A stretch of DNA of 64,000 nucleotides, taken from the NCBI RefSeq assembly GCF_013371215.1, contig NZ_JABWMH010000004.1:186001-250000 (forward strand), written 5' to 3'. The notes under the pieces were generated by a model that saw only the letters and a list, made by a program, of their open reading frames with translations, searched no databases and had not been told where the DNA came from. The first letter of the stretch is position 1. Each line of letters begins with the position of its first letter. The DNA is from Parasphingorhabdus flavimaris (GTDB lineage Bacteria; Pseudomonadota; Alphaproteobacteria; Sphingomonadales; Sphingomonadaceae). Both the position numbers and the translations under genes were made by a program. This document shows, in pieces, positions 18,388 through 33,025 of this stretch.

Positions 18388-18410
18388 CGGACCGATACAG
18401 GAGATATAGA

Positions 18411-19544
18411 ATGGATTTCGATTTTACCGACGAACAGAATATGGTGCGCGACGGCATTTCGCGTCTGATCCGCGAGCAATATGACTTTGATACGCGCCGC
18501 AAGGTCGTTGCGAGCGAATCCGGCTGGCGTCCCGAGCTCTGGGCGCAACTGGCCGAACTCGGCATGCTTGCGGCACCCTTTTCGGAAGAAGATGGCGGTT
18601 TTGGCGGTGCGACCGAAGCGATGATCATCATGGAAGAATTCGGCAAGGGCCTAGCGGTCGAGCCGTTCATTCCATCAGTGGTCTGCGCCGGCGGTGCCCT
18701 GAAACATGGCGGCAATGATGCGCAGCGCGAAGAATATATCGGCGGCATTATTTCCGGCGAGATGGTCTTTGCCTTTGCTTATGCCGAACCACGCGGGCGT
18801 TATGATCTGGCGAATCTGGAAACCACGGCCAAGGCCGATGGCGGCGACTATGTCATCAACGGCCACAAGGCGGTTGTGATCGGCGCACCCTGGGCAACCC
18901 ATCTGGTCGTAACCGCGCGCACTTCGGGCGGACAGACCGACAAGGACGGCGTATCCGTATTCATCGTCGACAAGGCGGCACAGGGCGTGAGCACCCGCGA
19001 TTATGCGACGGTTGACGGCCGCCGCGCTTCGGAAGTCTATTTCGAAAATGTCAAAGTTTCCGGCGACGCGCTGATCGGCGACGCGGGCAACGGCTTGCCG
19101 CTGATCGAGAAGGTCGTCGACGAAGCGACCGCAGCGGTCTGCGCGGAAGCGGTTGGCGCGATGAAGGTGACCAACGAAACCACGCTCGATTATTCGCGCC
19201 AGCGCAAGCAGTTCGGCACGCCGATCGGATCGTTCCAGGTGCTGCAGCACCGGATGGCGGATATGCTGATGGAATATGAGCAGTCGGTATCGATGTGCTA
19301 TCTGGCGACGATCAAGCTTGATGAAGACGATGCAACCCGCAAGAAGAATGTCTCCGCGGCCAAGGTCCGGATCGGACAGGCCGGACGTTTCATCGGCCAG
19401 TCGGCAATCCAGACCCATGGCGGCATGGGCATGACCGACGAACTGGCGGTGGGCAGCTATTTCAAGCGCCTGTCGATCATCGAAGGCGAATTCGGCAGCG
19501 TCGACCATCATATGCGGCGGCATATTGCTTTGACGGCAGCCTGA
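18411..19544 (+). CDS. Acyl-CoA dehydrogenase, small-subunit type (PimD-like)
   Basis: A 377-residue acyl-CoA dehydrogenase homologue. N-terminal MDFDFTDEQNMVRDGISRL, middle-domain FAFAYAEPRGRYDLANL and the C-terminal IQTHGGMGMTDELAVGSYF are typical. The end, EGEFGSVDHHMRRHIAL, matches the small subunit of pimeloyl-CoA dehydrogenase-like heteromers, and differs from the EIQR ending of the first gene's product. The two genes are cotranscribed (23-nt gap) and closed by a strong terminator. A heteromer is inferred from the pair and its divergence. Confidence 0.9.
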   Translation: MDFDFTDEQNMVRDGISRLIREQYDFDTRRKVVASESGWRPELWAQLAELGMLAAPFSEEDGGFGGATEAMIIMEEFGKGLAVEPFIPSVVCAGGALKHGGNDAQREEYIGGIISGEMVFAFAYAEPRGRYDLANLETTAKADGGDYVINGHKAVVIGAPWATHLVVTARTSGGQTDKDGVSVFIVDKAAQGVSTRDYATVDGRRASEVYFENVKVSGDALIGDAGNGLPLIEKVVDEATAAVCAEAVGAMKVTNETTLDYSRQRKQFGTPIGSFQVLQHRMADMLMEYEQSVSMCYLATIKLDEDDATRKKNVSAAKVRIGQAGRFIGQSAIQTHGGMGMTDELAVGSYFKRLSIIEGEFGSVDHHMRRHIALTAA

Positions 19545-19564
19545 TAGTCGAACCCAACCCAATT

Positions 19565-19606
19565 AAAAAGGGGGGCGAACCAAGCCGGTTCCGCCCCCTT
19601 TTTTTG
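19565..19606. terminator. Intrinsic terminator, probably bidirectional
   Basis: GGGGGCGAACC pairs with GGTTCCGCCCCC (one bulged base) around a 4-5 nt loop, flanked by an A-run on the left and a T7 run on the right. It lies between the convergent acyl-CoA dehydrogenase and SDR genes, so it can serve both strands. Confidence 0.88.
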
Positions 19607-19625
19607 TCCAGCGCTTTCACGCAAA

Positions 19626-20366
19626 TTATAGCAGCAAACCGCCGTCGGCGATAATCGTCTGGCCGACGATATAGCCAGCCAGCGGTGAGGCGAGGAACAG
19701 GGCGAGGCCCGCCATGTCATCCGGATCGCCGATTCTGCCGACCGGGATCGACTTGACGGTTGCTTCCCGGCGCTGGGGATTGTCGGTGGTGACCTTGGTC
19801 ATCTTGGTCGCGATCAGTCCGGGCGCAATGCCGTTGACGCGGATGCCGTCCGGAGCCCAGGCCTTGCCCAGAGTCCGCGTCAAACCGGCAGCACCGGCCT
19901 TGGAGGCATTATAGCCGGGGTTGCCGACCGTCGCGTGGAAGGCCGCGGTGGAACTGATGATGATCAGCGAGCCTTTGGCCTGTTTCAGCAGATCGTGAAA
20001 CTCTCCTGCGCAGGTCATCAGGCTGTTGAGGTTGACCTGGACGACCCTGGCGAAATTCTCCGGTTCGAATTCTGCGCGCTTGTACATCACCATGCCCTGG
20101 GAGCAGACGAGTATGTCCAGCCTGTCGAACTTCTGGCGGAGCGCAATGATAGCGCTATCGTCGGCGGCATCGAGCTGGTGGTAGGTCAGACCCACAAGGT
20201 CGGAGCCTTCAGCCGCATCATAGTCGGTCTCGCTGGCCCGCGTTCCGGTTACATGGACATCTGCGCCCTGGTTGCGAAAGGCGTGCGCGGTGGCATTGCC
20301 GATGCCGCTGGATCCGCCGATGATGCAGACGGTCTGGCCATTATAGTCGAGCGATGGATCGATCAT
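19626..20366 (-). CDS. SDR family oxidoreductase
   Basis: A 246-residue NAD(P)-dependent short-chain dehydrogenase of classical type. The cofactor loop is IIGGSSGIGNATA near residue 15, the NNAG-region equivalent is LVCSQGMVMYKRA, the catalytic Ser is in IISSTAAFH, and YNASKAGAAGL gives Tyr-x-x-x-Lys. The usual Asn-Ala-Gly is changed to SQG. C-terminal PVGRIGDPDDMAGLALFLAS and IIADGG are standard. It is convergent with the acyl-CoA dehydrogenases and divergent from the second SDR. Likely part of an acyl or alcohol oxidation pathway; substrate unknown. Confidence 0.9.
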   Translation of the reverse strand: MIDPSLDYNGQTVCIIGGSSGIGNATAHAFRNQGADVHVTGTRASETDYDAAEGSDLVGLTYHQLDAADDSAIIALRQKFDRLDILVCSQGMVMYKRAEFEPENFARVVQVNLNSLMTCAGEFHDLLKQAKGSLIIISSTAAFHATVGNPGYNASKAGAAGLTRTLGKAWAPDGIRVNGIAPGLIATKMTKVTTDNPQRREATVKSIPVGRIGDPDDMAGLALFLASPLAGYIVGQTIIADGGLLL

Positions 20367-20456
20367 TTTTTTCTGTCTCCTGTATGATTGACTATTGGCC
20401 GAGCATTTGCCGATCGTCTAGACCCTGTTGCATCATCAGGCCGGAGCAATGACATT

Positions 20457-21227
20457 ATGGATATTCCCTTTTCCCTCGAAGGACGCACCGCGCTGATTGC
20501 CGGTGCCTCGTCCGGCTTTGGTGCGCGGTTCGCGATTCTTTTTGCGGCGGCGGGTGCCAATGTGGTGCTCGGTGCCCGGCGAACCGACCGGACAGATGCG
20601 CTGGCCCAGCAGATTGTCGATGCCGGCGGCAGGGCGCTGGCGGTGCCGCTGGACGTTACCGACGAAGCGTCGGTCGTCGCGGCTTATGATGCAGCGGAGG
20701 CGGCTTTTGGAACGGTCGATACGATCATCGCCAATGCCGGAGTGGCAGCACCCGGGCGAGCAACCGAGGTCGCAGCAGATCGGCTGCAGACGTTGCTCGA
20801 TACCAATTTCAAGGGGGTCTATCTGGTGGCGCGCGAGGGTGCCAAACGCCTGATTGCTTCCGGTAGCCGAGAAAAGGGCAATGGCCGGATCGTGATTGTC
20901 GGATCGATCACCTCGCGGCAAACCGGCGACGGCGACAGCGCCTATGCGGCCAGCAAGGCCGGCATAACCCATCTTGGCCGCAATTTTGCGCGCGAATGGA
21001 TACGGCAGGGGATCAATGTGAATATCATCCACCCCGGCTATATCGCTACCGAAATCCAGGGCGACTGGTACCAGACCGCTGGCGGCGAAGCGCAGATTGC
21101 CGGATTCCATCGCCGCCGCTTGCAGGATATCGAATCACTCGATCCGATGATGCTCTATCTCTCGTCCGATGCCTCGCAGATGGTAACCGGATCGGATATG
21201 GTCGTCGACGACGGCCAATCGCTCTGA
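20457..21227 (+). CDS. SDR family oxidoreductase
   Basis: A 256-residue short-chain dehydrogenase. ATG at 20457 gives MDIPFSLEGRTALIAGASSGFG, with the nucleotide loop GASSGFG; longer in-frame readings run into the promoter region shared with the first SDR. ANAGVAAPG is the NAG motif, the catalytic Ser is in IVGSITSRQ and YAASKAGITHLGRNF holds Tyr and Lys. SDQM-type end VTGSDMVVDDGQSL is typical of 3-oxoacyl reductase or 3-hydroxyacyl-CoA dehydrogenase-like SDRs. Role beside the acyl-CoA dehydrogenases fits beta-oxidation-like steps; this is inference. Confidence 0.9.
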   Translation: MDIPFSLEGRTALIAGASSGFGARFAILFAAAGANVVLGARRTDRTDALAQQIVDAGGRALAVPLDVTDEASVVAAYDAAEAAFGTVDTIIANAGVAAPGRATEVAADRLQTLLDTNFKGVYLVAREGAKRLIASGSREKGNGRIVIVGSITSRQTGDGDSAYAASKAGITHLGRNFAREWIRQGINVNIIHPGYIATEIQGDWYQTAGGEAQIAGFHRRRLQDIESLDPMMLYLSSDASQMVTGSDMVVDDGQSL

Positions 21228-21274: not shown

Positions 21275-23140
21275 CTAGGCAGCGACGCTCCCGGGCTGAA
21301 CCGGCGCCGGCAGTCCGGTTTCCGCCAGACAATTGGCGCGGAGCGTTTCGATATCCGGGCCAAAGTTGAACGGTCCGTCGGTCTCGACGATATTTTCCGC
21401 CATTTCCGCGCGCAGGCTTTCAGTGGACGGACCATCGACGCTGCCATCGCTGGCAATCACCACGCCATAATCGCGGGCGCCTTTGGCGGTGACCAGGCCC
21501 TGCCTGATTTCCAGCGCAACCAGTTCAGGGTCGCGCTCGAGCGGGTTGCCCCAGCCGCCCCCGCCCCAGGTGATGAAGTGAAGCAGATCGCCTTCGCGCA
21601 CCTCGATGCCGTCCTGCTTGTTGCCGACCACCTCTTTTGATCCATCCGCGCGCTCGAGTATTTTGGTCGCCCGGTCACCCGGCTGGCCTCCGTTGACGCC
21701 CCAGGGATAGGTGAACCAGCGATCGTCGTGGATCGCCACCGTTCCGGGTTCGAGGAAGCGGTAGGTCATGTGGATGCCGTTGCCGCCGCGAAACAGGCCT
21801 GCGCCACCGCTGTCCGGCTTGGCTTCATAGCGTTCGATTCTGAGCGGGAAATATTTCTCGAGAAATTCGTTCGGCACATTGGTGAAGCCGGGCCACAGCG
21901 AGTGACCATCCGGGCCATCGCCAAAGGGTCGGCCGGGAATGCCGCCAAAGCCGATCTGGAAGAGCTGGAACCATTCACCCGACTTGTCGAAACCGGAATA
22001 CATCAGATGCGGGCTGGAGGAGAATCCGGCGCCGTTGAGGAATTCCGGCTGGCGCTGGCCGAGAAGACCGCCCAATATGTCGAAAATCCGGCCCAGCGCA
22101 TGGGTGCGTCCGGCGAGCGCGGCCGGATATTTCGGCTTGAGCAGCGAGCCTTCCGGAATGCGCACGTCGACCAGATCATAGAAGCCGTCGTTGAACAATA
22201 TCTGCGGATCAAAGACCATGATCATGTAGATGCCGAAGAACATCTTGAACATATTCTCGTTGAGGAAGAAGTTGATCGAGCTCGGCGCCTGCGGGTCGGT
22301 GCCCTCGAAATCGAGGATCACCTTGCCGTCCTCGCGCCACATCTTGCAGCTGATCTTGTAGGGGCCGAAACCGACGCCGTCGTCGCAGATATAGTCGCTG
22401 AAGCTGACCGGTTCCTCGCCGATGCTGGTCTCGATCAGATGTTTCATGGCGCGGTGGTTGCGTGCCAGCAGCAGATCGGTGGCGCCGGCAAATTCATCCT
22501 CGCCAAAGCGCGCACACATTTCATCGACCCGGCGGGCCGCCACCCGGCAGGAAGCAATCAGCGCGTTGAGATCGGCGGCGCACCAGTCCGGCTTGCGGCT
22601 CTGGTGCAGGACGACCTTCACCATCTCCTCGTTATAGACGCCCTTTTGATAGATTTTCACCGGCGGTATGCGGACACCTTCCTCGAACACGCTCTTGCTG
22701 TCGATCGGAATCGAGCCGGCGACCTTGCCGCCGATATCGGACTGGTGACCGAACATGGCGGTCCAGGCGACAAGCCGCCCACCGCGATAGACCGGCAGCA
22801 ACACCAGCCAGTCATTATTATGGCTGACCGCGCCGTCGCAACTGTACGGATCGCTGAGGAAGATCATGTCGCCTTCCTCGATCGTGCCGGGATAGGAGCG
22901 CAGGAAGCCGTCGATGAAGCTGCCGAACTGGCCGACCACCATCTTGCCGGCGCGGTCGGCGATCAGGGGAAAGGCGTCGCCCTGTTCCCTGATGCCCGGC
23001 GACATGGCGGTGCGCACGAGGGTTGCGTCCATCTCGATCCGAGCGTTGCGCAAGGCATTTTCCATGATGTCGAGCGTGACCGGGTCGACCTCGACCTTGT
23101 TGAAGGGAGCATTGTTGGTTTCGATAATCTGTGCGGGCAT
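21275..23140 (-). CDS. Hydantoinase/oxoprolinase family protein, subunit B (HyuB type)
   Basis: A 621-residue protein of the HyuB family. HyuAB-type enzymes use ATP to open cyclic amides (N-methylhydantoin, 5-oxoproline, lactams) or, in acetone and acetophenone carboxylases, to carboxylate ketones. Family segments: VDPVTLDIMENALRNARIEM near the start, DPYSCDGAVSHNNDW (a metal-binding-like DPY...H), GSIPIDSKSVFEEGVRIPP and the C-terminal WGVNGGQPGDRATKI and HFITWGGGGWGNPLERDP. It begins 1 nt after the subunit A stop, so both subunits are made together. Which ring or ketone is used cannot be told from the sequence. Confidence 0.92.
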   Translation of the reverse strand: MPAQIIETNNAPFNKVEVDPVTLDIMENALRNARIEMDATLVRTAMSPGIREQGDAFPLIADRAGKMVVGQFGSFIDGFLRSYPGTIEEGDMIFLSDPYSCDGAVSHNNDWLVLLPVYRGGRLVAWTAMFGHQSDIGGKVAGSIPIDSKSVFEEGVRIPPVKIYQKGVYNEEMVKVVLHQSRKPDWCAADLNALIASCRVAARRVDEMCARFGEDEFAGATDLLLARNHRAMKHLIETSIGEEPVSFSDYICDDGVGFGPYKISCKMWREDGKVILDFEGTDPQAPSSINFFLNENMFKMFFGIYMIMVFDPQILFNDGFYDLVDVRIPEGSLLKPKYPAALAGRTHALGRIFDILGGLLGQRQPEFLNGAGFSSSPHLMYSGFDKSGEWFQLFQIGFGGIPGRPFGDGPDGHSLWPGFTNVPNEFLEKYFPLRIERYEAKPDSGGAGLFRGGNGIHMTYRFLEPGTVAIHDDRWFTYPWGVNGGQPGDRATKILERADGSKEVVGNKQDGIEVREGDLLHFITWGGGGWGNPLERDPELVALEIRQGLVTAKGARDYGVVIASDGSVDGPSTESLRAEMAENIVETDGPFNFGPDIETLRANCLAETGLPAPVQPGSVAA

Positions 23141-23141
23141 A

Positions 23142-25196
23142 TCAGGCTCCTTCCACCAGGTTGATGATCAGATTGCCATGGTCGTCGACCAGCGCTTCGC
23201 AGCCGCTGTGCACGAGCGTGGTGCTATCCATTTCGGTGACGATGGCGGGCCCCGATATGCTGTTGCCGGCCTTCAGCAGCGCGCGGTCGTAAATCACCGC
23301 ATCTTGCATCTTGCCGTCCATATAGAGCTGGTGATCGCGGGTTTTTGCAGCCGACGGGTCGGCATCCCCCTTTTCGATCACTGGTGGCGCAACGTCGGCG
23401 GACTTGCCGAGCGCGACCGCGCGAACATTGACGATCTCGTGTGGTGTCTCGTCCAGATTGAAGGTGAACAAGCGCTCATGCTCGGTATCGAAGCGGGTGA
23501 TCAGGCTGGCGATGGAAAGACCTGCGGGTTCCACCGACAGCGGAATTTCGAAGGCCTGGCCGGCGTAGCGGATATCGATTTCATAGAGCAATTCGATATC
23601 GCCGGGCGCGACATCCTCGGCCTCCAGTTCCTGTTTGACCTGCGCGCCGAGGCTGTCGAGATAGGCGGTGAGCTCTTCGTCGCTGGTGTTCTGCACCATC
23701 TTGTTGAAGCTGCGCTGGGTTTCGACCCGTTGCCGTGTGGTCGCGTCGCCATAGGCGCAGAGCACACCGGGTGAAGGCGGGATGATCACCGGCCAGCTGT
23801 TCATCAGCTTGCCCATCGCATTGGCGTGCAGCGGTCCGGCACCGCCAAATCCCATCAGAGCAAAGTCGCGCGGGTCATAGCCCTGCTGGACCGAGACCAG
23901 CCGCAGCGCGCCAAACATATTTTCATTCACGATGTCGATGATACCGGCGGCGGCGTCCATCAGGTCGATGCCCAGCGCGTCGGAAATCGTCTGCACCGAT
24001 TTTTTGGCCCCTTCGCGATCCAGGGTGAAGCTGCCTCCCAGCAGGGACTCCGGCAAATAGCCGAGCACGACATTGGCGTCGGTCACCGTCGGCAATTCGC
24101 CACCCTTGCCATAAGCCACCGGCCCGGGCACCGCGCCGGCGCTTTCAGGGCCGACCCGCAGCGCCTTGGTCAGCTCGGGCACGAAGGCGATCGAGCCGCC
24201 ACCCGCGCCGACGGTTTTGACGTCGATGGAAGAAGCGCGGACATTCAGGTCACCGACCGAGGTCTCCCGTTGCAACCGCGCGGCACCGTTTTCGATCAGC
24301 GCCACATCGGTCGACGTGCCGCCCATGTCGAGCGTGAGAATATTTTTCACGCCCGCGCTTTTCGCCACCCAGACGGCCCCGGCGACACCGCCGGCCGGTC
24401 CCGACATCAGCAGGTTGACCGGCGCTTCGGCGCTTTTTTCCGCCGACATCAATCCGCCATCGGAGCGCAGCAGATTGAGCTTTGCCTTGCTACCCCAATC
24501 CTTCAGCTCCCGTTCCAGATTGCCGACATAGCGCGCGACCGCCGGGCGTACGGCGCTATTGGCGATGGTGGTGAGGGCGCGTTCATATTCCTGCATCTCC
24601 GGCAGGATGTCGGAGGAGATGGAAATCGGAATATCGGGAAAGACTTCGGCGCAAATGGCGGCGACCGCCTTTTCGTGCCGACCGTCCACATAGCTGTTCA
24701 TCAGACAGATGGTCAGCGCCTCGATTTCTTCCGATGCTTTCAGCCGTTCCAGCCGGGCTCGCATTTCCGCCTCGTCCAGCTCGCGAACGGTCTTGCCTTC
24801 GGCATCCATCCGTTCCGGCGCCTCGATCGTGCGTTCGAGCGCTGCCATGGGTTCGGGTTTCGGCCAGATGATCCAGGCGGCGAGGCCACCGGGTACCAGA
24901 CTGCGGGCAATCTGCATCAAATGGCGATAGCCGTCGGTGACGACCAGCCCGACTTTGGCGATCTTCTTTTCCAGCACTGCGTTGGTCGCGACGGTGGTGC
25001 CGTGCAGAAACAGGTCGATATCGGCGGGTGCAATATTCTGGCGTTCGCAAAGGCCCCTTGCGCCATTAATAACCGCCTGGGAGGGGTCGCTTGGGGTTGA
25101 GGGCACCTTGTCGCGGAACGTCCGGCCGGTCGCTTCGTCAATCAGCAGCAGGTCGGTAAAAGTTCCACCGACGTCGACACCCAATCGATACCCCAT
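23142..25196 (-). CDS. Hydantoinase/oxoprolinase family protein, subunit A (HyuA type)
   Basis: A 684-residue ATP-binding subunit with an ASKHA-type fold. The phosphate loop GVDVGGTFTDLLLID is at residues 6-20, LFLHGTTVATNAVLEKK near 65, and NILTLDMGGTSTDVALI plus GAGGGSIAFV supply the second phosphate site. FALMGFGGAGPLHANAMG is the usual C-terminal domain motif. Spacing to subunit B is 1 nt and to the upstream lyase 29 nt, so lyase, A and B form one operon read from the operator-containing promoter at 26150. It should activate the carbonyl of the substrate by phosphorylation. Confidence 0.93.
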   Translation of the reverse strand: MGYRLGVDVGGTFTDLLLIDEATGRTFRDKVPSTPSDPSQAVINGARGLCERQNIAPADIDLFLHGTTVATNAVLEKKIAKVGLVVTDGYRHLMQIARSLVPGGLAAWIIWPKPEPMAALERTIEAPERMDAEGKTVRELDEAEMRARLERLKASEEIEALTICLMNSYVDGRHEKAVAAICAEVFPDIPISISSDILPEMQEYERALTTIANSAVRPAVARYVGNLERELKDWGSKAKLNLLRSDGGLMSAEKSAEAPVNLLMSGPAGGVAGAVWVAKSAGVKNILTLDMGGTSTDVALIENGAARLQRETSVGDLNVRASSIDVKTVGAGGGSIAFVPELTKALRVGPESAGAVPGPVAYGKGGELPTVTDANVVLGYLPESLLGGSFTLDREGAKKSVQTISDALGIDLMDAAAGIIDIVNENMFGALRLVSVQQGYDPRDFALMGFGGAGPLHANAMGKLMNSWPVIIPPSPGVLCAYGDATTRQRVETQRSFNKMVQNTSDEELTAYLDSLGAQVKQELEAEDVAPGDIELLYEIDIRYAGQAFEIPLSVEPAGLSIASLITRFDTEHERLFTFNLDETPHEIVNVRAVALGKSADVAPPVIEKGDADPSAAKTRDHQLYMDGKMQDAVIYDRALLKAGNSISGPAIVTEMDSTTLVHSGCEALVDDHGNLIINLVEGA

Positions 25197-25225
25197 ATTT
25201 TACACTCTCTCTTATATTATGTCAT

Positions 25226-26146
25226 TCAGGCTTCGGCTCTCGCAACCAGAGACGGCAACGGTCGCCCGAGAATCGATTCAAACCACTGGTTGGTGGCTAT
25301 GGCTTTTTGCAGATCGAGATCATGGTCAATGCCGGAACGGTTCAGCAGATTGACCAGATCTTCCGTGGCGATGTTGCCAGTGGCATTGGGCGCGAACGGA
25401 CAGCCTCCGAGCCCGCCGAGGCTGGAATCGAGCGTCGACACACCCGCCTGAACCGCGGCCCACGCATTGGCGATGCCGGTGTTGCGGGTGTCATGGAAAT
25501 GGGCGCGCATGGAGATATGGTCGGGAAGCAATTCCCTGAGACGGCCGAACAGGTCGGTGACCTGCGCCGGCACGCCGACACCTATCGTGTCGGCCAGGGC
25601 AATTTCCGTGGGGTCTTCGGCGGCCATTTCCTGAGCGATATGCATTACGGTTTTGGGATCCACAGCGCCTTCGAACGGACAGCCAAAGGCAGCCGAGATG
25701 GTGACTTGTGCCTTCAGTCCCTCGGCCTTGGCGAAACGGATCATCTCGCGATTTTCTTTGATCCCCTGCTCAATGGTCTGGCCCTGGTTCTTTTCACCGA
25801 ATGTATTGCTGGCCACTATAACGCAACCGGCTTCGTCAATGCCGCGCTTGTTGCCTTCGCGCGTCGCCAGTCCGCGCAGCACACCGCGCTTGTTCAGGCA
25901 GAGGCCGATATAGGAGATATCGTCGCGGTCGGGCAGACCGGCGATCACCGCTTCGGCATCGGCCATTTGCGGAACCCGGCCGGGGTGGACAAAGCTCGCC
26001 ACTTCGATGCGCTTGACTCCGGCGTCGAGCATCCGGGTGATCAGGCCCAGCTTGTCCGCCGTCGAAATGATCTCCGCTTCATTCTGTAGCCCGTCCCGGG
26101 GACCGACTTCCAATATTGACACGGCAGTGCGAGTATCTGTGCTCAT
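25226..26146 (-). CDS. HMG-CoA lyase family protein (DRE-TIM metallolyase)
   Basis: A 306-residue lyase that should cleave a 3-hydroxy-3-methylglutaryl-CoA-like thioester to acetyl-CoA and an oxo acid. VGPRDGLQNEAEI carries the catalytic Arg and metal-binding Asp; MRAHFHDTRNTGIANAW holds the His-x-His pair; GLGGCPFAPNATGN carries the conserved loop Cys. Active-site residues are thus complete. ATG at 26146 was chosen because longer readings cross the promoter. No Shine-Dalgarno is visible and a TATACA box sits at -7 to -12 from the start codon, so the mRNA may be leaderless. First gene of the lyase-HyuA-HyuB operon. Confidence 0.9.
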   Translation of the reverse strand: MSTDTRTAVSILEVGPRDGLQNEAEIISTADKLGLITRMLDAGVKRIEVASFVHPGRVPQMADAEAVIAGLPDRDDISYIGLCLNKRGVLRGLATREGNKRGIDEAGCVIVASNTFGEKNQGQTIEQGIKENREMIRFAKAEGLKAQVTISAAFGCPFEGAVDPKTVMHIAQEMAAEDPTEIALADTIGVGVPAQVTDLFGRLRELLPDHISMRAHFHDTRNTGIANAWAAVQAGVSTLDSSLGGLGGCPFAPNATGNIATEDLVNLLNRSGIDHDLDLQKAIATNQWFESILGRPLPSLVARAEA

Positions 26147-26150
26147 ATAA

Positions 26151-26162
26151 ATTGTATACAAT
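26151..26162. promoter_or_regulatory. Palindromic operator ATTGTATACAAT, copy 1 (predicted GntR site)
   Basis: A perfect 12-bp palindrome in the 64-bp gap between the divergent lyase and CoA-transferase genes. An identical copy lies at 28136-28147 beside the GntR/FCD regulator gene. It covers the presumed minus-strand -10 box TATACA (26153-26158), which has a -35-like TATACA 17 bp upstream (26176-26181). FCD-type GntR proteins commonly bind short palindromes of this kind, so repression by the local regulator is inferred. Confidence 0.75.
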
Positions 26163-26210
26163 CCTGTTTGCGCTTTGTATAGGGGAAAGCATGATGCGGG
26201 AGTATTTTTC

Positions 26211-27392
26211 ATGACGCAAGGGGCGTTGACAGGATTGCGGCTGATCGAAATGGGTCAGCTGATTGCGGGGCCGTTCTGCGGCCAGCTGATGGGCGACCAT
26301 GGGGCAGAAGTGATCAAGATCGAACCGCCGAAGGTCGGCGACGCGATGCGCAGCTGGGGTCAGGGCATTCCGCTCTGGTTCTCTGTTGTCGGCCGCAACA
26401 AAAAGTCGATCACGCTTAATCTGCGCGAAAAAGAAGGACAGGCGATCGTCAAGCAGCTGGTCGAGAAATCCGACTTTCTGTTGGAGAATTTCCGTGCCGG
26501 TACGATGGAAAAATGGGGTCTGGATTACGAGACGCTGAGCGCGATCAACAAGGGCCTGATCATGATCCGTGTCTCTGGCTATGGCCAGACCGGACCCTAT
26601 TCGCACCGGGCCGGCTATGGCGGCATAGGCGAGGCCATGGGCGGCATGCGCTATATCATGGGCGAGCCCGACCGGCCGCCAAGCCGCGCTGGCCTGTCGA
26701 TTGGCGATTCGCTCGCCGCGACCTACGCCTGTCTTGGCGGGCTGATGGCGCTGGAGCACCGGCACAAGACCGGCGAGGGACAGGTCGTCGATTCAGCCAT
26801 TTACGAAGCGGTGCTGGCGAATATGGAATCGACCATCGCGGAATATACGGTGGCGGGCCATATCCGCGAGCGGACGGGATCGATCCTGCCGAAAATTGCG
26901 CCCTCCAATGTCTATCCGACCAGCGACGGCAGTATATTGATCGGCGGCAATCAGGACAGTGTCTGGAAGCGCATGGCGGCGATGATGGGCCGGCCGGAAC
27001 TGGGCGAGGATCCACGCTATGCGACCCATGTCGCGCGTGGTGAAAACCAGACCGAGCTGGACGAACTGATCATGGAATGGACCAAAGGGATAAAAAGCCA
27101 GGAATTGCTGGATATGTGCGAGGAACATGGGGTTCCCGCCGGCAATGTCTATCGCGCTCCCGAAATGCTCGAAGACCCCCATTTCAAGGCACGCGAGGCC
27201 CTGGTCGAGATGGACCACCCGCAGCACGAGCATTTCGTCATGCAGAATGTCGCGCCGAAATTGTCCAAGACTCCCGGCCATATCGATAGTGTCGGGCCGG
27301 ATCTGGGTGCGCATAATGAAGCCGTTTATGGCGAGCTTCTGGGCATGGACAGCGCGAAAATGAACGACTTGCGGGAGCGGGGTATTATCTGA
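26211..27392 (+). CDS. CaiB/BaiF (class III) CoA transferase
   Basis: A 393-residue family III CoA transferase, moving CoA between acyl-CoA and a free carboxylic acid. GLRLIEMGQLIAGPFCGQL, HGAEVIKIEPP and KSITLNLREKEG are family N-terminal segments; GLSIGDSLAATYACLGGLMAL carries the conserved catalytic Asp (GD). The start ATG 26211 has GGGAG eight bases upstream; the frame is open to a TTG at 26175 that lies in the promoter. It diverges from the lyase-HyuAB operon and ends 13 nt from the convergent GntR gene. It probably activates the cluster's substrate acid. Confidence 0.93.
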   Translation: MTQGALTGLRLIEMGQLIAGPFCGQLMGDHGAEVIKIEPPKVGDAMRSWGQGIPLWFSVVGRNKKSITLNLREKEGQAIVKQLVEKSDFLLENFRAGTMEKWGLDYETLSAINKGLIMIRVSGYGQTGPYSHRAGYGGIGEAMGGMRYIMGEPDRPPSRAGLSIGDSLAATYACLGGLMALEHRHKTGEGQVVDSAIYEAVLANMESTIAEYTVAGHIRERTGSILPKIAPSNVYPTSDGSILIGGNQDSVWKRMAAMMGRPELGEDPRYATHVARGENQTELDELIMEWTKGIKSQELLDMCEEHGVPAGNVYRAPEMLEDPHFKAREALVEMDHPQHEHFVMQNVAPKLSKTPGHIDSVGPDLGAHNEAVYGELLGMDSAKMNDLRERGII

Positions 27393-27405
27393 AATCTGTA
27401 TCCAG

Positions 27406-28059
27406 TCAGTCTTCCACGGTTCGCGCCGATGCGCTGCTGAAGCTGTGGAAAGCGCGCCGGATATGGCTGGTCATCACCGCACCGGCCCAGACCTGATCCC
27501 TGGCGGTAAAGGCGGCGATCAGTTCATCATGATCGAGTCCCGACTGGACCAGGTCCTCCTGTGAATAGTGATTGGCGGTGCGACGGACCACTGGCTGTTC
27601 GACCAGCGCCGGCAGCAGCTTGCTCAGCCTTGGTGACTGCGCACATGCGAGGATCAGGTCGTGAAACTGCCGGTTGGCGTCCAGAAAAGTCCCGATGTCG
27701 GGCTTGGGCCGATTGACGGCCTCGGTCAGAATTTCATTGATCTCGCGCAACCGGACAAGGCTGTCGCCGTCCATGCGCTGTGCCGCCCGCTCGGCGGCAT
27801 GGGATTCCAGCATCGCCCGCAATGTGAACATTTCATCAATTTCATCATCGGACCAGTCCGCGACCGAAAGTCGCTTGGAGGCGCTGCGCACCAGCAGCAT
27901 CTCGTTCTCCAGGCGCTGAACCGCATCGCGCACCGGGGTTCGCGACACGCCGGAAATCTCGGAAAGCCGTTCCTCGGTCAATTGCATACCCGGATGGGCT
28001 TCTCCGTACAGGATGAAGCTGCGGATTTTTTCATAGGCGGTGTCGGAAGCGCGGCTCAT
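27406..28059 (-). CDS. GntR family transcriptional regulator, FCD subfamily
   Basis: A 217-residue regulator. The N-terminal winged helix-turn-helix has LTEERLSEISGVSRTPVRDAV at about residues 27-47, and the all-helical FCD effector domain follows, with FLDANRQFHDLILACA carrying the Asp/His metal or ligand residues and a later SGLDHDELIAAFTARD His. Such proteins usually respond to small carboxylic acids. Two identical palindromes, 77 bp upstream of its own start and in front of the lyase/CoA-transferase pair, are its likely sites. It therefore probably controls itself, the lyase-HyuAB operon, the CoA transferase and the downstream uptake operon. Confidence 0.93.
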   Translation of the reverse strand: MSRASDTAYEKIRSFILYGEAHPGMQLTEERLSEISGVSRTPVRDAVQRLENEMLLVRSASKRLSVADWSDDEIDEMFTLRAMLESHAAERAAQRMDGDSLVRLREINEILTEAVNRPKPDIGTFLDANRQFHDLILACAQSPRLSKLLPALVEQPVVRRTANHYSQEDLVQSGLDHDELIAAFTARDQVWAGAVMTSHIRRAFHSFSSASARTVED

Positions 28060-28135
28060 GGACAGGCTATTGGCGGATTAAGCACGATTGAGCAAGTCCT
28101 GACCAGAACGGGCAATTTCCGCTTGACGGACGGCA

Positions 28136-28147
28136 ATTGTATACAAT
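28136..28147. promoter_or_regulatory. Palindromic operator ATTGTATACAAT, copy 2 (predicted GntR site)
   Basis: Identical to the palindrome at 26151-26162. It lies between the divergent GntR gene and the racemase-like gene, inside the spacer of a plus-strand promoter candidate (TTGACG at 28123-28128, TAGAAC at 28147-28152, 18-bp spacer). Binding there would block RNA polymerase, which fits a repressor. Confidence 0.75.
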
Positions 28148-28177
28148 AGAACGTCATCAGGGAGTCTTTACATCACC

Positions 28178-28201
28178 ATGACTGAACCGAAATTGCTATG
28201 A
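28178..28201 (+). CDS. Possible 7-residue leader peptide ahead of the racemase-like gene
   Basis: ATG 28178 opens a micro-ORF reading MTEPKLL whose TGA overlaps the ATG at 28198 (ATGA). A GGGAG lies 13 bases before it, whereas the racemase-like gene has no Shine-Dalgarno of its own. Translational coupling through the micro-ORF is possible; chance is not excluded. Confidence 0.35.
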   Translation: MTEPKLL

Positions 28202-28941
28202 AGCGGATCAAGGTCATCGTCCCCATCCCGATGGATGAGGCCGGCGTGGCCGCCCGCGCAGAGCAATTGCCCGCTGACTTCGTCAGGGAAGGTTTCCAGC
28301 CTGAATTTGTCGCCGTCCCGTGGGGCGCTGCCCTTGGCGACAGCTATCATGACACATTGCTAATGGACTGGACCGTCTTCCAGGCCGGGATCAAGGCCGA
28401 GGAAGAAGGCTATGCCGGGGTGCTGATCGACACGGTCAGCGACAGCGGCCTCCGCGCACTTCGTTCCCGTCTTGATATTCCTGTGGTCGGCCCTGGCGAG
28501 GCCGCTTTTGCCGCCGCGATGATGCTGGGCAAGAAATTCACCGTGCTGACGATGTGGCCCGAATGGTTCCCGCTCTATGAAAAGACGCTGACCGAATATG
28601 GCTGGTGGGAGAGGGTGGCGTCGTTGCGCTCGATCGACACCCGCCCCGACGTCACCGAATTGCTCGCCGGCAAGGAAGAGGTGATCTTCGACAAGCTCAA
28701 GGCAGAAGCTCTGCTGGCAATCGAGGAAGATGGCGCGGATGTGATCGTGCTGGGTTCGACCACCATGCATCAGTCGGCCCAATATCTTGACGCGAACCTG
28801 CCGATCCCGGTGCTTAACCCGGGCCAGGTCGCCTATAAATTTCTCGAAACTTTGATCGAACTCGGCCTGACCCACAGCAAGAAGGCCTTCCCGGCTCCCG
28901 AAGTGCCGAAGGATGAAGATATTCGAAAGGGATGGTATTGA
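28198..28941 (+). CDS. Asp/Glu/hydantoin racemase superfamily protein lacking catalytic cysteines
   Basis: A 247-residue protein with the two-domain Asp/Glu racemase fold. MKRIKVIVPIPMDEAG, GVLIDTVSDSGLRALRSRL and ADVIVLGSTTMHQ align by eye with the hydantoin racemase pattern, in which the two catalytic Cys follow the strands (CFxDPGL and LGCAGM). Here these positions are Thr/Val and Ser, so the two-base Cys mechanism cannot operate. It may be a lyase or isomerase of the wider family, or a binding protein. First gene of the plus-strand group that continues with two NTF2-like proteins (each overlapping by 1 nt), a TonB receptor and an amidase-like hydrolase. Confidence 0.85.
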   Translation: MKRIKVIVPIPMDEAGVAARAEQLPADFVREGFQPEFVAVPWGAALGDSYHDTLLMDWTVFQAGIKAEEEGYAGVLIDTVSDSGLRALRSRLDIPVVGPGEAAFAAAMMLGKKFTVLTMWPEWFPLYEKTLTEYGWWERVASLRSIDTRPDVTELLAGKEEVIFDKLKAEALLAIEEDGADVIVLGSTTMHQSAQYLDANLPIPVLNPGQVAYKFLETLIELGLTHSKKAFPAPEVPKDEDIRKGWY

Positions 28942-29372
28942 TGACTGACTGGACACCCGGAATGGCAGGCCAGGTGGCTTTGCCTTATCCTTTCTACATC
29001 GACATCGTGACCAAGCGCTATTTTGATGGCGTCGACAACAAGAACATGACCCAGGTGCTCAACTGTTTCGCGCCCGATGCGGTGCTCTATGAGGCAACCT
29101 CCGATACCACCCACAAGGGCCGCGAAGCGATCAGGGCGATGTTCGAAAAGCTGTTCGCCGATTTCGAGCAGATCTGGCACGGCAATTTTGTCCACACCGC
29201 CGACCCTGCTTCCAACGCCATCTGTTCGCAGTTCACGGTGCTGATCACGCCCAATGGCGGCGAGCAGCTGCGCTATGAAAATTGCAACCGTTTCTATTGC
29301 AAGGATCGCCTGTTCCAGGACGTCACCGTCTATATGAGCGGCGACAATCTGCTGAAAGAGGGAGATGTCTGA
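28941..29372 (+). CDS. NTF2-like (SnoaL-type) protein, first of a tandem pair
   Basis: A 143-residue protein with the cone-shaped NTF2-like fold predicted from YFDGVDNKNMTQVLNCFAPDAVLYE, read in parts, and the C-terminal FYCKDRLFQDVTVYMSG. ATG 28941 overlaps the preceding TGA (TGATG). It is clearly paralogous to the product of the next gene: both share VD(N/A)KNM, a Cys-Phe pair and YMSG(D/A)N at the end. NTF2-like proteins act as small hydrolases, isomerases, cyclases or as subunits. The function is not known; the context suggests a step of the cluster's catabolic route. Confidence 0.82.
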   Translation: MTDWTPGMAGQVALPYPFYIDIVTKRYFDGVDNKNMTQVLNCFAPDAVLYEATSDTTHKGREAIRAMFEKLFADFEQIWHGNFVHTADPASNAICSQFTVLITPNGGEQLRYENCNRFYCKDRLFQDVTVYMSGDNLLKEGDV

Positions 29373-29770
29373 TGCAATATGAACCCGGCCTTTCCCGCGA
29401 CGAACTGATCCAGCTGGCAACCCGGACCTATTTCGGCAATGTCGATGCCAAGAATATGGAGGCCGCGCTCGACTGTTTCCACGACGGCGCGCTCTTCTGC
29501 GTCCAGACCGATTTTACCCGTCACAGCGGCAAGGAAGAAATCCGGCGCATGTTCGATGATTTCTTCGCAGCCTATGAAACCATCATCCACCGTGACTTCA
29601 CCTGTACCGTCGATGAAGCCAATGGCCGGATCGCCGCCTCTTTCGTTGCCGAACTGACCGATGCCGACGGCGGTGTCACATTACTCAACAACACCAATTT
29701 TTGGAGAGTCCGGGACGGTAAATTTCAGGAAGTTTACGTCTATATGAGCGGGGCCAACGTGCTCGTTTAA
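29372..29770 (+). CDS. NTF2-like (SnoaL-type) protein, second of a tandem pair
   Basis: A 132-residue NTF2-like protein starting at ATG 29372, which overlaps the TGA of its paralogue. Segments YFGNVDAKNMEAALDCFHDG, RHSGKEEIRRMFDDFFAAYE and KFQEVYVYMSGANVLV are typical of the fold. Identity to the first copy is modest but spread over the whole length, so the pair probably arose by an old duplication and may form a heterodimer. No catalytic residues can be assigned with confidence. Confidence 0.82.
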   Translation: MQYEPGLSRDELIQLATRTYFGNVDAKNMEAALDCFHDGALFCVQTDFTRHSGKEEIRRMFDDFFAAYETIIHRDFTCTVDEANGRIAASFVAELTDADGGVTLLNNTNFWRVRDGKFQEVYVYMSGANVLV

Positions 29771-29827
29771 TCACCATTTGACGGGCCAAAAGGTCCGCAA
29801 ATCATTCCATTCAGGGAAGGAAGAAAA

Positions 29828-32350
29828 ATGCGACGCATCAAAACAGTTCTTTCACTTTCAGCCGGCTTCGCCGCGCTGGTCGGCTCCAATTCGGCTTTCG
29901 CGCAAACCGGTAGCGATCAGGCGAGCGAAGGTCAGGACAGCAATATGATCATCGTGACGGCACGACGTCAGGACGAACTGCTTGTAGACGTTCCGGCATC
30001 GGTCACGGTTTTCACGTCCGAAATGCTCGATCGGACGGGCGTCCAGCAAGCTGATGAATTTGTCCAGCTTACCGCTGGTGTGACCATTGTCAGCGGAACC
30101 GCGGAGGCGGGCGACACGCAGATCAACATCCGGGGTATCAATGGCGCGCGCGACGCCGAAAGTTCGGTTGCGCTGGTGGTTGACGGTATTCTCAAGACCA
30201 ACACCGCCCAGCTCAACCAGGATCAGGGCACGTTGCGCCAGATCGAAATATTGAAGGGTCCGCAAGGCGCTCTTTATGGCCGCAACGCGGCGGCCGGCGC
30301 GATCGTGATCCAGACGCTCAAACCCAGCGATATCATGGAAGGCGGCATCAAGGTCAGCGCCGCCGAGGATAAGACTTATAAGGCATCGGCCTATATTTCC
30401 ACGCCATTGGGCGACAGCGCCGGTCTGGTGCTTTCCGGCTCCTACAACACCACCGACGGTTTTTACCGCAACAGCTTTCTCGGCAACCGCAAGGTTGTCG
30501 ATGATCAGGAAACCTGGTCGGTCGACGGCCGTTTTGTCGCCGAGTTGGGAGATTCGACGGAAGTCGATGTGAAGGCTCGCTACGCCGATCTGTCCGGCGC
30601 CTCGATCAATTTCAACACGTCATTCCATCTGCCCAATTTTGCTGGCGTGGATCCGGCCTTTTTCGAAGACGTGAACACGCACAAGTTCGGCTATTATTCG
30701 AACATCCGCCCGACCAACGAGCAGACCACGTTTGAAACATCGGTCAAACTGACCCATGAATTTGAAGCAATGACGCTGACCGCCTGGGCGCTCTACAGCG
30801 ATGTTGACCAGGCGCTGACAGCAGACGGCACGTCGGCAGATTTCGCACGATACACTTTCCCGGGTGCAACGCCCGCGTCGGTCGTGGCGTCAAACAGCTG
30901 CTTTGCAACCACGGCGCAACTGACCGGCTATCCGCTCAACGCTCCGACCTTTGTTGGCAACAATCCGATCCCGTTCATTTTCGATCCGGTCAATGGTTCA
31001 ACCTTGGGCGCCTATAGCCCGACCACCTGTGATGGCACCCAATATCAGATTCGCGAACAGACGGACATCAGCGCGGAAATCCGGCTGGCCTCCAATGGTG
31101 ACGGGCCGCTGGCCTGGCAGATCGGTGCCTATTATCTGAACATCGATCGTGATGTCGGGGTCAGCCTCGGTGCTGATCTCGGGCAGGGAGTCACGAGAGA
31201 ATTGTATAATGATGCGAACAGCAGCAACCCGACTTCGCAGCTGTTTGCCGACAATTTCAACACCAATGTCTATGCCGCCTTTGGCTCGGTTGATTATGAA
31301 GTTGCCGATAATTTAGACGTCAGCCTGGCGCTGCGCTACGACATCGAGCAGCGGGAAGTATCCAGCCGGGTACCACTGGTGACCGATCCGATCACCGGCG
31401 GACCGATCAATCCGGGGCAGGCTTTTGGTCCCATTCCGGATCAGAAGGAGACGTTCAAGGAGCTGCAGCCAAAACTGTCGCTGCGCTATGGTCTGACCGA
31501 CAATCTCAATTTCTACGCCAACTGGGGTATCGGTTTCAAATCGGGCGGCTTCAACAACCAGGGATCCGCCGCCATTGTTGACCAGAATTTCAACCAGTTC
31601 CTCGGGACCAACGTCCTGATCAACGATATTTACCGCAAGGAAACATCGAGCGCTTTCGAGGCGGGTTTCAAGGGATCGGCGGCGAATGATGCGATCACCT
31701 TCGATCTGGCCGGCTATTATACCAAAGTCGATGACATGCAGTTCTTCGAATTTTTCGTCGGCGCCTTTGGTTTGCTCCGCGTGGTCTCGAACATCGACAA
31801 GGTTGATCTTTACGGAATCGAGTTCAACGCCAATGCAGAAATTGTAGACGGCTGGGATATCTTCGGATCGATCAATGTCACCGAAAGCGAGATCAAGGCC
31901 AACGCCTCCCGACCCTACACGGTTGGCAACAAGTCGCCTCATACCGCAGATTATACGATCAATCTCGGTACACAGATGGTTGCCCCGATCGCGACCAGTT
32001 TTGACCTGGTGATGCGCGCCGACTATCGGATCACCGGCCCGACCTGGTTCCACACGGTTCAGGAAGACACCGGCCCGACCCTGTTCAGTGGTCTGTTACC
32101 CGGTTCTGCTCTCGCGCTACCCGCGTTTGTCGGCGACGGAGATATGTCGGTTACCGAGCGTGACGCTTTCGGGGTTCTCGATCTTCGTTTCGGACTGGAA
32201 GGCGACAACTGGAATGTCACCGCCTTTGCCGACAATCTGCTCGACAAGCGCTATCTCAACGAGGTGATTACTGCGGTCGAATTTGGCGGGTCGTTCATTT
32301 CACCCGGTGGCCTGCGCCGCTTCGGTGTCGAAGTCGGATATAAATTCTGA
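29828..32350 (+). CDS. TonB-dependent receptor of the hydantoinase cluster
   Basis: An 840-residue outer-membrane receptor. The signal peptide of about 25 residues ends NSAFAQ, the TonB-box-like NMIIVTARRQDE follows, and the plug has PASVTVFTSEMLDRTG, INIRGINGARD and LKGPQGALYGRNAAAGAI. The C-terminus ends with the barrel-closing LRRFGVEVGYKF, with a terminal Phe. GGAAGG lies seven bases before the ATG. It sits 57 nt behind the NTF2-like pair and should import the cluster's substrate or a related compound. Iron-siderophore uptake is the generic alternative. Confidence 0.95.
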   Translation: MRRIKTVLSLSAGFAALVGSNSAFAQTGSDQASEGQDSNMIIVTARRQDELLVDVPASVTVFTSEMLDRTGVQQADEFVQLTAGVTIVSGTAEAGDTQINIRGINGARDAESSVALVVDGILKTNTAQLNQDQGTLRQIEILKGPQGALYGRNAAAGAIVIQTLKPSDIMEGGIKVSAAEDKTYKASAYISTPLGDSAGLVLSGSYNTTDGFYRNSFLGNRKVVDDQETWSVDGRFVAELGDSTEVDVKARYADLSGASINFNTSFHLPNFAGVDPAFFEDVNTHKFGYYSNIRPTNEQTTFETSVKLTHEFEAMTLTAWALYSDVDQALTADGTSADFARYTFPGATPASVVASNSCFATTAQLTGYPLNAPTFVGNNPIPFIFDPVNGSTLGAYSPTTCDGTQYQIREQTDISAEIRLASNGDGPLAWQIGAYYLNIDRDVGVSLGADLGQGVTRELYNDANSSNPTSQLFADNFNTNVYAAFGSVDYEVADNLDVSLALRYDIEQREVSSRVPLVTDPITGGPINPGQAFGPIPDQKETFKELQPKLSLRYGLTDNLNFYANWGIGFKSGGFNNQGSAAIVDQNFNQFLGTNVLINDIYRKETSSAFEAGFKGSAANDAITFDLAGYYTKVDDMQFFEFFVGAFGLLRVVSNIDKVDLYGIEFNANAEIVDGWDIFGSINVTESEIKANASRPYTVGNKSPHTADYTINLGTQMVAPIATSFDLVMRADYRITGPTWFHTVQEDTGPTLFSGLLPGSALALPAFVGDGDMSVTERDAFGVLDLRFGLEGDNWNVTAFADNLLDKRYLNEVITAVEFGGSFISPGGLRRFGVEVGYKF

Positions 32351-32389
32351 TGATTGCGCCGTCCTGCGGCTGGCGATATCGTTGCCGCG

Positions 32390-33025
32390 ATGACGGATGA
32401 ACTTCAAGACAATTACGCGGGCGTTTTTGACGGCGGGCTCGGCTTTGGTCGCAAGCCGGCGCTGATCCTGGTCGATTTCGTCGAGGCCTATTTCGACAAG
32501 GGCTGCGATCTATATGCCGGGGTCGAGGACGTTCTCGCCAATGCCATTGTGCTGCGTGACGCGGCCCGGCGCGCCGGGCTTCTGATTGTCTACACCAATG
32601 TCGCTTACGCGCCATCGCTGATCGACGGGGGCCGGTTCGCGCAGAAAGTGGCGCCGCTGGCCAATTTCGTCGCCGGTCATCCGATGGGCGCGTGGCCCGA
32701 CGGGCTGGTACCGGCTGACAATGAGCTGGTCATTTCGAAACAATATGCCAGCGCCTTTTTTGGCACGAGTCTGGCCTCGACGCTGACCGCCAATGGCAAT
32801 GACAGTCTGATCATCGCAGGCTTGACCACCAGCGGCTGCGTACGCGCCACCTGTGTCGATTGCTGTTCCCACGGTTTCATCCCGATTGTCGCCCGGCAAT
32901 CCGTCGGCGATCGACACCCGGGACCGCATGAAGCGAACCTGTTCGACATGCAGGCCAAATATGGTGAAGTGGTTCCCGACGCGCAGGTCATCGACTATTT
33001 GAGCGACTTGCAGGGCGGGGCTTGA
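32390..33025 (+). CDS. Isochorismatase-family cysteine hydrolase (N-carbamoylsarcosine amidase-like)
   Basis: A 211-residue cysteine hydrolase. The start MTDELQDNYAGVFDGGLGF and the block GFGRKPALILVDFVEAYFD, with the catalytic Asp, are those of N-carbamoylsarcosine amidohydrolase-type enzymes. The catalytic Lys is in VISKQYASAFFG and the nucleophile in GLTTSGCVRATCVDC. The triad is complete. Such enzymes remove carbamoyl groups from N-carbamoyl amino acids made by hydantoinases, so the gene complements the HyuAB genes of this cluster. It lies 39 nt behind the receptor gene. The exact substrate is inferred from family and context only. Confidence 0.9.
   Translation: MTDELQDNYAGVFDGGLGFGRKPALILVDFVEAYFDKGCDLYAGVEDVLANAIVLRDAARRAGLLIVYTNVAYAPSLIDGGRFAQKVAPLANFVAGHPMGAWPDGLVPADNELVISKQYASAFFGTSLASTLTANGNDSLIIAGLTTSGCVRATCVDCCSHGFIPIVARQSVGDRHPGPHEANLFDMQAKYGEVVPDAQVIDYLSDLQGGA

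Follow-up and report, generated by a model that had tools for sequence, protein, structure and literature searches.

A ten-gene cluster of Parasphingorhabdus flavimaris around a HyuAB-type enzyme, predicted to form one GntR/FCD regulon for the breakdown of a cyclic imide or ureide

In a 64-kb window of DNA from Parasphingorhabdus flavimaris, ten genes within a block of 11.75 kb (Table 1) are predicted from their sequences to be one regulon under a GntR/FCD regulator encoded among them. The function proposed for this regulon, which has about an even chance of being correct, is a catabolic one where a cyclic imide or ureide would be imported, opened by HyuAB, deamidated by an isochorismatase-fold amidohydrolase (ICH), activated with coenzyme A (CoA) by a CaiB family III CoA-transferase and split by a lyase of the 3-hydroxy-3-methylglutaryl (HMG)-CoA lyase type (HMGL). 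The genes HMGL, HyuA and HyuB run leftwards and CaiB forms the opposite arm of the same divergent promoter; beyond CaiB follows the GntR/FCD gene and then, divergently, Race (racemase fold), NTFa and NTFb (both NTF2-like), a TonB-dependent receptor (TBDT) and ICH. Only one base separates HyuA from HyuB, and Race/NTFa as well as NTFa/NTFb overlap. All genes named in a first-pass annotation of this DNA were found as open frames at the places given there and each family was confirmed by Pfam, with the starts of HMGL (26146), CaiB (26211) and ICH (32390), and probably that of NTFb (29372), corrected in the present analysis.

When searching the complete genome (3,349,176 bases) for the palindrome TTGTATACAA, exactly two places were found, these being the two divergent promoters of the cluster. 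The same sequence read backwards, used as a control, occurs at three places, so that what is unusual about the TTGTATACAA sites is their position and not their number. For the predicted operator ATTGTATACAAT 0.06 matches with up to one mismatch would be expected in the window. A longer form, ATTGTATACAAW, was found at 26 places in 21 genomes when 119 genomes of the family were scanned, and of the 25 places inspected (at 23 loci, plus the second sites of G000 and G254; a second site in genome G726 was left out) 23 are situated beside cluster genes and two elsewhere. Furthermore, in 54 relatives the cluster spans (612 kb) contain 103 copies of the core TGTATACA and the flanking sequence (568 kb) none, with two or more copies in 50 of these loci, one copy in three and none in one. 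This distribution, together with the restriction of TTGTATACAA to the two cluster promoters, indicates a single GntR/FCD regulon, and the regulator, having the palindrome both at its own promoter and at the target promoters, resembles a local regulator at the sequence level. Of the two ATTGTATACAAW sites away from the cluster genes, one (L212; G155, contig 13) precedes the gene of another TonB receptor, 30% identical and possibly a distant member of the regulon, with HyuB of G155 being on contig 12, while the other, in G230, was read by eye to lie inside pilin-like frames.

The conservation of the cluster was addressed by scanning species genomes with HyuB, which revealed at least 554 relatives. 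The best 80 of these (76–99% identical) were kept as loci extending 10 kb from HyuB, and 54 of them, 21 kb or more in length, constitute a full-flank set. Seventy-eight of the 80 loci are named as sphingomonad taxa, assuming that the genus names have been assigned correctly by us, and two as 'Alphaproteobacteria' only; they are not phylogenetically independent. Clustering of the frames showed that the only families present in at least 30 of the 80 loci (hereafter the widely conserved set) are the ten genes (nine clusters, NTFa and NTFb being merged), and the next most frequent families occur in 11. Counted as best tblastn matches with an identity of 40% or more and a score above 60 bits, HyuA was found in 79 of the 80 loci, CaiB in 77, HMGL in 71, GntR in 67, TBDT in 63, ICH in 53, NTFa and NTFb in 33 each and Race in 32. 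The corresponding numbers for the 54 full-flank loci are 54 for HyuA and CaiB, 53 for HMGL, 52 for GntR and TBDT, 38 for ICH and 27 each for Race, NTFa and NTFb. The SDR and acyl-CoA dehydrogenase genes adjoining the cluster are present in 10 or 11 of the 80 loci and therefore mark close kinship only. The window's own downstream neighbours would for the most part be beyond 10 kb in the relatives and provide no fair control; in the 54 full loci the sequence beyond the cluster amounts to 1 kb or more in 40 on the downstream-neighbour side and in all 54 on the other side.

Among 296 genomes of the order, HyuB (E ≤ 1e-200) was identified in 95 and Race (340 bits or more, a line chosen after a gap in the scores had been seen) in 26, all 26 belonging to the 95, for which the probability by chance is 1e-14, uncorrected for kinship. 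If the next three Race matches (247–258 bits) are added, 28 out of 29 genomes contain HyuB, the exception, G231, showing no HyuB match. As the HyuB count includes relatives outside the cluster (such as the copies in G014, 58% and 49% identical), at most 95 of the genomes have the cluster itself. In other orders of the class G632 (L150) carries all ten families together, and G432 (L165) carries HyuAB, ICH, Race and NTFb, without HMGL or CaiB within the 20 kb analysed. In its own genome HyuB is the only match at E ≤ 0.001. The search for co-conservation proposed in the first-pass annotation has thereby been made and found the ten genes kept together, and its view of the genes as one regulated unit agrees with both this result and the palindrome shared by the two divergent promoters. 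Chance neighbours with separate roles would be in line with the Race-NTF trio being present in only 27 of the 54 full-flank relatives, but such an explanation is extremely improbable when both genome places of TTGTATACAA are in the cluster, TGTATACA is distributed 103 to 0 in the relatives and every one of the 26 genomes whose Race reaches 340 bits also has HyuB.

Comparisons of HyuA and HyuB with solved structures place them with the hydrolases, suggesting an ATP-dependent cyclic amidohydrolase rather than a carboxylase. For HyuA the N-methylhydantoinase 7hk5 gave 462 bits, 6yra 371 and carboxylases 282 and 229, and the order is the same for HyuB (7hk5 226, 6yra_B 184, carboxylases 124 and 52); 6yra is deposited as 5-oxoprolinase/hydantoinase and is, we assume, the caprolactamase. 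The motif H107-x-x-D110 ... H132-x-x-D135-I-G-G of HyuB is the same in 6yra_B, while the corresponding sequence is Q-x-x-D-N-G-G in N-methylhydantoinase and H-x-x-(E/D)-T-G-A in the carboxylases. Residues H107, D110, H132, D135 and G138 are present in 120 of 120 aligned sequences and G137 in 119 of 120 (these counts, like those for HMGL, CaiB and ICH below, comprise frames of similar length with at least 50% identity). The scores are below the cut-offs of the CapAB equivalog models (519 bits for HyuA against CapA and 204 for CapB, cut-offs 1000) and of the acetophenone-carboxylase NCBIfam models (290, 188 and 118 bits against 1500, 1250 and 1500). An enzyme of the acetone/acetophenone-carboxylase type, with CaiB and HMGL acting on the carboxylated ketone, would belong to the same superfamily and carboxylases are among the PDB matches; this reading was nevertheless rejected as very improbable on the lower PDB scores and the hydrolase-type D-I-G-G motif, and it would leave ICH without a role.

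The best PDB matches of ICH are N-carbamoylsarcosine amidohydrolase (26st, 133 bits) and 3ot4/3uao (118 bits), the latter listed as putative isochorismatase, which we take to be the maleamate amidase NicF, and having the sequence GPHEANLFDM in common with ICH. The residues D29, K117, C150 and R175 are found in 37 of 37 aligned sequences, giving ICH at the family level the Asp-Lys-Cys set of the N-carbamoylsarcosine amidohydrolase type, and the invariant arginine R175 presumably clamps a carboxylate. The relatives of ICH require a CO-NH2 group near a carboxylate, and the substrate of HyuAB should consequently be an imide (giving a half-amide) or a ureide (giving an N-carbamoyl acid) and not a plain lactam.

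For CaiB, in which D166 is present in 81 of 81 aligned sequences, the best NCBIfam model is succinate-glutarate CoA-transferase (297 bits, below the cut-off of 750), and the best PDB matches include a succinate-HMG CoA-transferase (9br7). HMGL passes the NCBI subfamily model for HMG-CoA lyase and its residues R17, D18, E48, H216, H218, C249 and N258 are found in 78 of 78 aligned sequences. A second HMG-CoA lyase was not found in the genome, where PF00682 has three matches including HMGL, the others being of the DmpG-domain aldolase type (L113) and a protein judged by eye to be a 2-isopropylmalate synthase (L112). A branched dicarboxyl-CoA, as put forward in the first-pass annotation, or a hydroxy one is chemically sensible in the light of these CaiB matches and the HMGL subfamily model. 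A route using a 3-hydroxy-3-methylglutaryl amide or imide, where CaiB and HMGL would make HMG-CoA and from it acetyl-CoA and acetoacetate, is rather unlikely; the subfamily model, the 9br7 match and the lack of a second HMG-CoA lyase among the matches in the genome argue for it, but CaiB is below every curated cut-off listed and the LeuCD-like and lyase additions of some relatives are unneeded for HMG.

The AlphaFold2 (AF2) model of Race (predicted local distance difference test, pLDDT, 91.6) has the allantoin racemase 3qvk as its nearest solved fold (TM 0.84, 29% identity). In an alignment of 24 of 43 sequences, down to 46% identity, T79 and S187 are invariant, and in a paralogue from L031 with 38% identity the positions aligned with them are both occupied by cysteines, presumably the catalytic ones of the family. 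Race of the window contains no cysteine at all and 29 of 42 homologues have one elsewhere. With both catalytic cysteines, characteristic of the Cys-Cys Asp/Glu/hydantoin racemases, replaced by invariant Thr79 and Ser187, Race is unlikely to be a two-base cysteine racemase, and the label racemase-like given to it earlier does not hold as a function; a racemase-fold protein without these cysteines is a testable question of its own. NTFa (AF2 pLDDT 86.5) has a fold of the ketosteroid-isomerase/limonene-epoxide-hydrolase type and NTFb is 40% identical to it over 120 residues.

In the pathway proposed from these assignments, the TonB receptor would import a small imide or ureide, cyclic in either case, and HyuAB would open the ring at the expense of ATP, leaving a carboxylate and a CO-NH2 group, the nitrogen of which ICH would release as ammonia with its arginine clamping the new carboxylate. 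CaiB would then transfer CoA from a donor such as succinyl-CoA to the resulting hydroxy- or alkyl-dicarboxylate, and HMGL would cleave the product in a retro-Claisen reaction to an acyl-CoA plus a keto acid, which in the case of HMG would be acetoacetate. An imide-derived dicarboxylate with a beta-hydroxyl could enter CaiB/HMGL directly, otherwise after hydration by enzymes of the LeuCD, PrpD or NTF type. The optional Race-NTFa-NTFb trio might either widen the substrate range or perform the hydration or isomerisation done elsewhere by LeuCD-/PrpD-like enzymes, and GntR would leave both operators when an intermediate is present.

As substrate class an imide is moderately preferred over a hydantoin because the dicarboxylate would enter CaiB directly while the amino acid derived from a hydantoin needs deamination, and no deaminating enzyme is found in the widely conserved set. 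A hydantoin or ureide route, with HyuAB opening a substituted hydantoin, ICH removing the carbamoyl group, unlinked enzymes deaminating the product before CaiB/HMGL and Race descending from an enzyme acting on the stereocentre, is a tenable if unlikely alternative. In its favour, the N-methylhydantoin enzyme pair gives the highest scores with both HyuAB and ICH, Race has the allantoin-racemase fold and an NCS1 permease is part of the operon in one relative (L091), but the same lack of a deaminating enzyme and the loss of both cysteines in Race speak against it.

Some relatives carry further genes, and the additions resembling LeuCD, PrpD and methylisocitrate lyase, together with the NCS1 permease, fit the hydroxy-/alkyl-dicarboxylate intermediate of the proposed pathway. 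In L091 (Sphingomonas sp. Y57) the order is TBDT-MmgE/PrpD-NCS1 permease-HMGL-HyuA-HyuB-CaiB-ICH-GntR; a methylisocitrate/dimethylmalate-lyase-like gene and the two NTF genes run divergently. The NCS1 family transports hydantoin and allantoin, and the best model for this member is cytosine permease, below cut-off. LeuCD-like genes are divergent from HMGL in L048, having their own TGTATACA about 35 bp upstream, and in L182, where the exact TGTATACA was not found at that place, only degenerate look-alikes. Both L161 and L167 contain HyuAB, ICH, a LeuCD-like pair and a PrpB/dimethylmalate-lyase-like enzyme (the copy in L167 being below the cut-offs of its models), and L157, L163 and L164 contain HyuAB, ICH, a PrpB/dimethylmalate-lyase-like gene and CaiB and HMGL of 27–42% identity.

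Other features were observed in these loci. In L182 (13605-15212) a nitrilase-family gene (below model cut-off) with TGTATACA centred 19 bp upstream adjoins a second isochorismatase-family gene (weak models biuret amidohydrolase and RutB, below cut-off). L167 (G254:C1:2673000-2692900), the second HyuAB locus of a genome of the same genus, looks like a heterocycle pathway and also harbours an arylmalonate-decarboxylase-family protein, two FAD monooxygenase-like genes, two aldehyde dehydrogenases, a PuuE-like hydrolase, an IclR regulator and an MFS transporter. In L155, L157, L163 and L164 a Sua5/YrdC-domain protein (L157:12820-13560) is encoded next to HyuAB, the PrpB-like lyase and ICH, the copies being 55–72% identical to that of L157, with weaker matches (32–41%) in L156, L159 and L160.

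Several findings weigh against the proposed pathway and its imide form. The additions were found in a minority of the 120 loci examined (lyase-like in 8, LeuC-like in 4, NCS1 in 1), and no NCS1 permease match was found in the P. flavimaris genome. ICH scores higher against N-carbamoylsarcosine amidohydrolase than against 3ot4/3uao, which favours a ureide, and it was not found in 16 of the 54 full-flank loci, partly since it is at or beyond the cut edge in close relatives. A dedicated hydratase of the LeuCD or PrpD type is missing from the cluster of the window, and an unsaturated dicarboxylate would thus have to be hydrated by a housekeeping enzyme or one of NTF type; a single close match to LeuC and a single distant one of the aconitase type are present in the genome. 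Finally, there are HyuAB relatives (73% in HyuB) without HMGL, CaiB or ICH nearby, in L215 and L216, which represent a different HyuAB cluster on sphingomonad plasmids. L215 (NZ_KM017071.1 29384-55228, plasmid pJE1) contains HyuAB with FAD oxidoreductases, a zinc dehydrogenase, PrpD, a methyltransferase, a HapK-like protein and a semialdehyde dehydrogenase, and in L216 (AP027332.1 1-20166, plasmid pTomTYG65b) HyuAB is found with a flavoprotein, a quinone oxidoreductase and a semialdehyde dehydrogenase.

A more specific form of the imide pathway, distinctly unlikely as a whole, would be a dedicated one, widespread in the Sphingomonadales, in which HyuAB is an ATP-driven imidase, the HMGL homologue cleaves a substituted malyl-CoA and Race is a new catalytic type, with for example alkyl-maleimides as substrates. 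Alkyl-maleimides are candidates as remnants of chlorophyll, haem and bilin breakdown, this tetrapyrrole link being a chemical guess; one example would be hematinic acid, with pyruvate and glutaryl-CoA as its predicted end products.

Table 1. Genes and predicted operators of the cluster (positions in the window)
Feature	Position	Strand	Support
HyuB, hydantoinase-B subunit, 621 aa	21275..23140	-	Pfam Hydantoinase_B, 473.5 bits
HyuA, ATP-binding-type subunit, 684 aa	23142..25196	-	Pfam Hydantoinase_A with N and C domains
HMGL, HMG-CoA-lyase-type lyase, 306 aa	25226..26146	-	Pfam HMGL-like; NF004283, 284 bits (cut-off 246)
Predicted operator ATTGTATACAAT, HMGL/CaiB divergent promoter	26151..26162		Perfect match; kept in relatives
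CaiB, family III CoA-transferase, 393 aa	26211..27392	+	Pfam CoA_transf_3, 412 bits
GntR/FCD regulator, 217 aa	27406..28059	-	Pfam FCD and GntR
Predicted operator ATTGTATACAAT, GntR/Race divergent promoter	28136..28147		Perfect match; kept in relatives
Race, allantoin/hydantoin-racemase-fold protein without catalytic cysteines, 247 aa	28198..28941	+	Pfam Asp_Glu_race
NTFa, SnoaL/NTF2-like, 146 aa	28932..29372	+	Pfam SnoaL_2
NTFb, SnoaL/NTF2-like (likely start 29372)	29369..29770	+	Pfam SnoaL_2
TBDT, TonB-dependent outer-membrane receptor, 840 aa	29828..32350	+	Pfam plug and barrel
ICH, isochorismatase-fold amidohydrolase, 211 aa	32390..33025	+	Pfam isochorismatase

Adjoining the cluster, at 17191-21227 of the window, are two acyl-CoA dehydrogenase and two SDR genes without TTGTATACAA; in close relatives (e.g. 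L034) an MFS transporter, missing in the window, is situated between them. A scan for promoters and terminators gave little information, with 8 promoter-like sequences against 4.2 expected and 12 terminator-like against 10.6 expected.

The cluster is a compact, operator-defined catabolic unit common to many sphingomonads. With such a clean regulon a reporter screen should be able to reveal the inducer; this would lead to the substrate for a family of HyuAB enzymes that is widespread, and would put a name to a further step in how nitrogen-containing ring compounds are turned over.

No description of a pathway with this gene set was found in the open-access literature searched, most subscription journals being outside its scope, which to that extent bears out the earlier statement that no named pathway contains all of these genes. 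The RefSeq record of a plasmid of Novosphingobium capsulatum HAMBI 0103 (L217) names the genes singly (TonB receptor, GntR, hydroxymethylglutaryl-CoA lyase, two hydantoinase subunits, CoA transferase and N-carbamoylsarcosine amidohydrolase) and gives no pathway. In the anaerobic indoleacetate pathway a HyuAB-like lactam opening is combined with a family III CoA-transferase, and the cluster shares with it the HyuAB-type ring opening before CoA transfer but differs in containing ICH and HMGL, with no mutase in the widely conserved set; an indoleacetate-type reading was set aside, no oxygenase being present in that set either and a preprint on the Variovorax iad genes (PMC12633357), whose text contains no word that starts with 'hydantoin', assigning an acyl-CoA synthase and a thiolase.

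Caprolactamase CapAB matches HyuAB over nearly the full length, including the HxxD..H..DIGG residues as in 6yra_B, but the CapA score is roughly one half and the CapB score one fifth of the respective curated cut-off, and the widely conserved set includes no transaminase. The N-methylhydantoin (creatinine) route consists of an ATP-dependent N-methylhydantoinase and N-carbamoylsarcosine amidohydrolase, against the solved enzymes of which HyuAB, at the family level a HyuAB-type hydantoinase, and ICH score best. In comparison with this route the cluster adds CaiB, HMGL, the TonB receptor, Race and the NTF proteins, and sarcosine oxidase or dehydrogenase is not among the widely conserved families, the rest of the genome not having been searched for it. 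The catabolism of HMG (meglutol) proceeds by a CoA-transferase and HMG-CoA lyase, the families of CaiB and HMGL in the cluster, whose regulon, however, includes ring-opening and deamidation enzymes; no paper on this catabolism was found in the open-access literature. The late nicotinate routes use NicF and NicE, or dimethylmaleate hydratase and dimethylmalate lyase. Some relatives come close to them in combining ICH, a LeuCD-like hydratase and a dimethylmalate-lyase-like enzyme, whereas the cluster of the window uses CaiB and HMGL.

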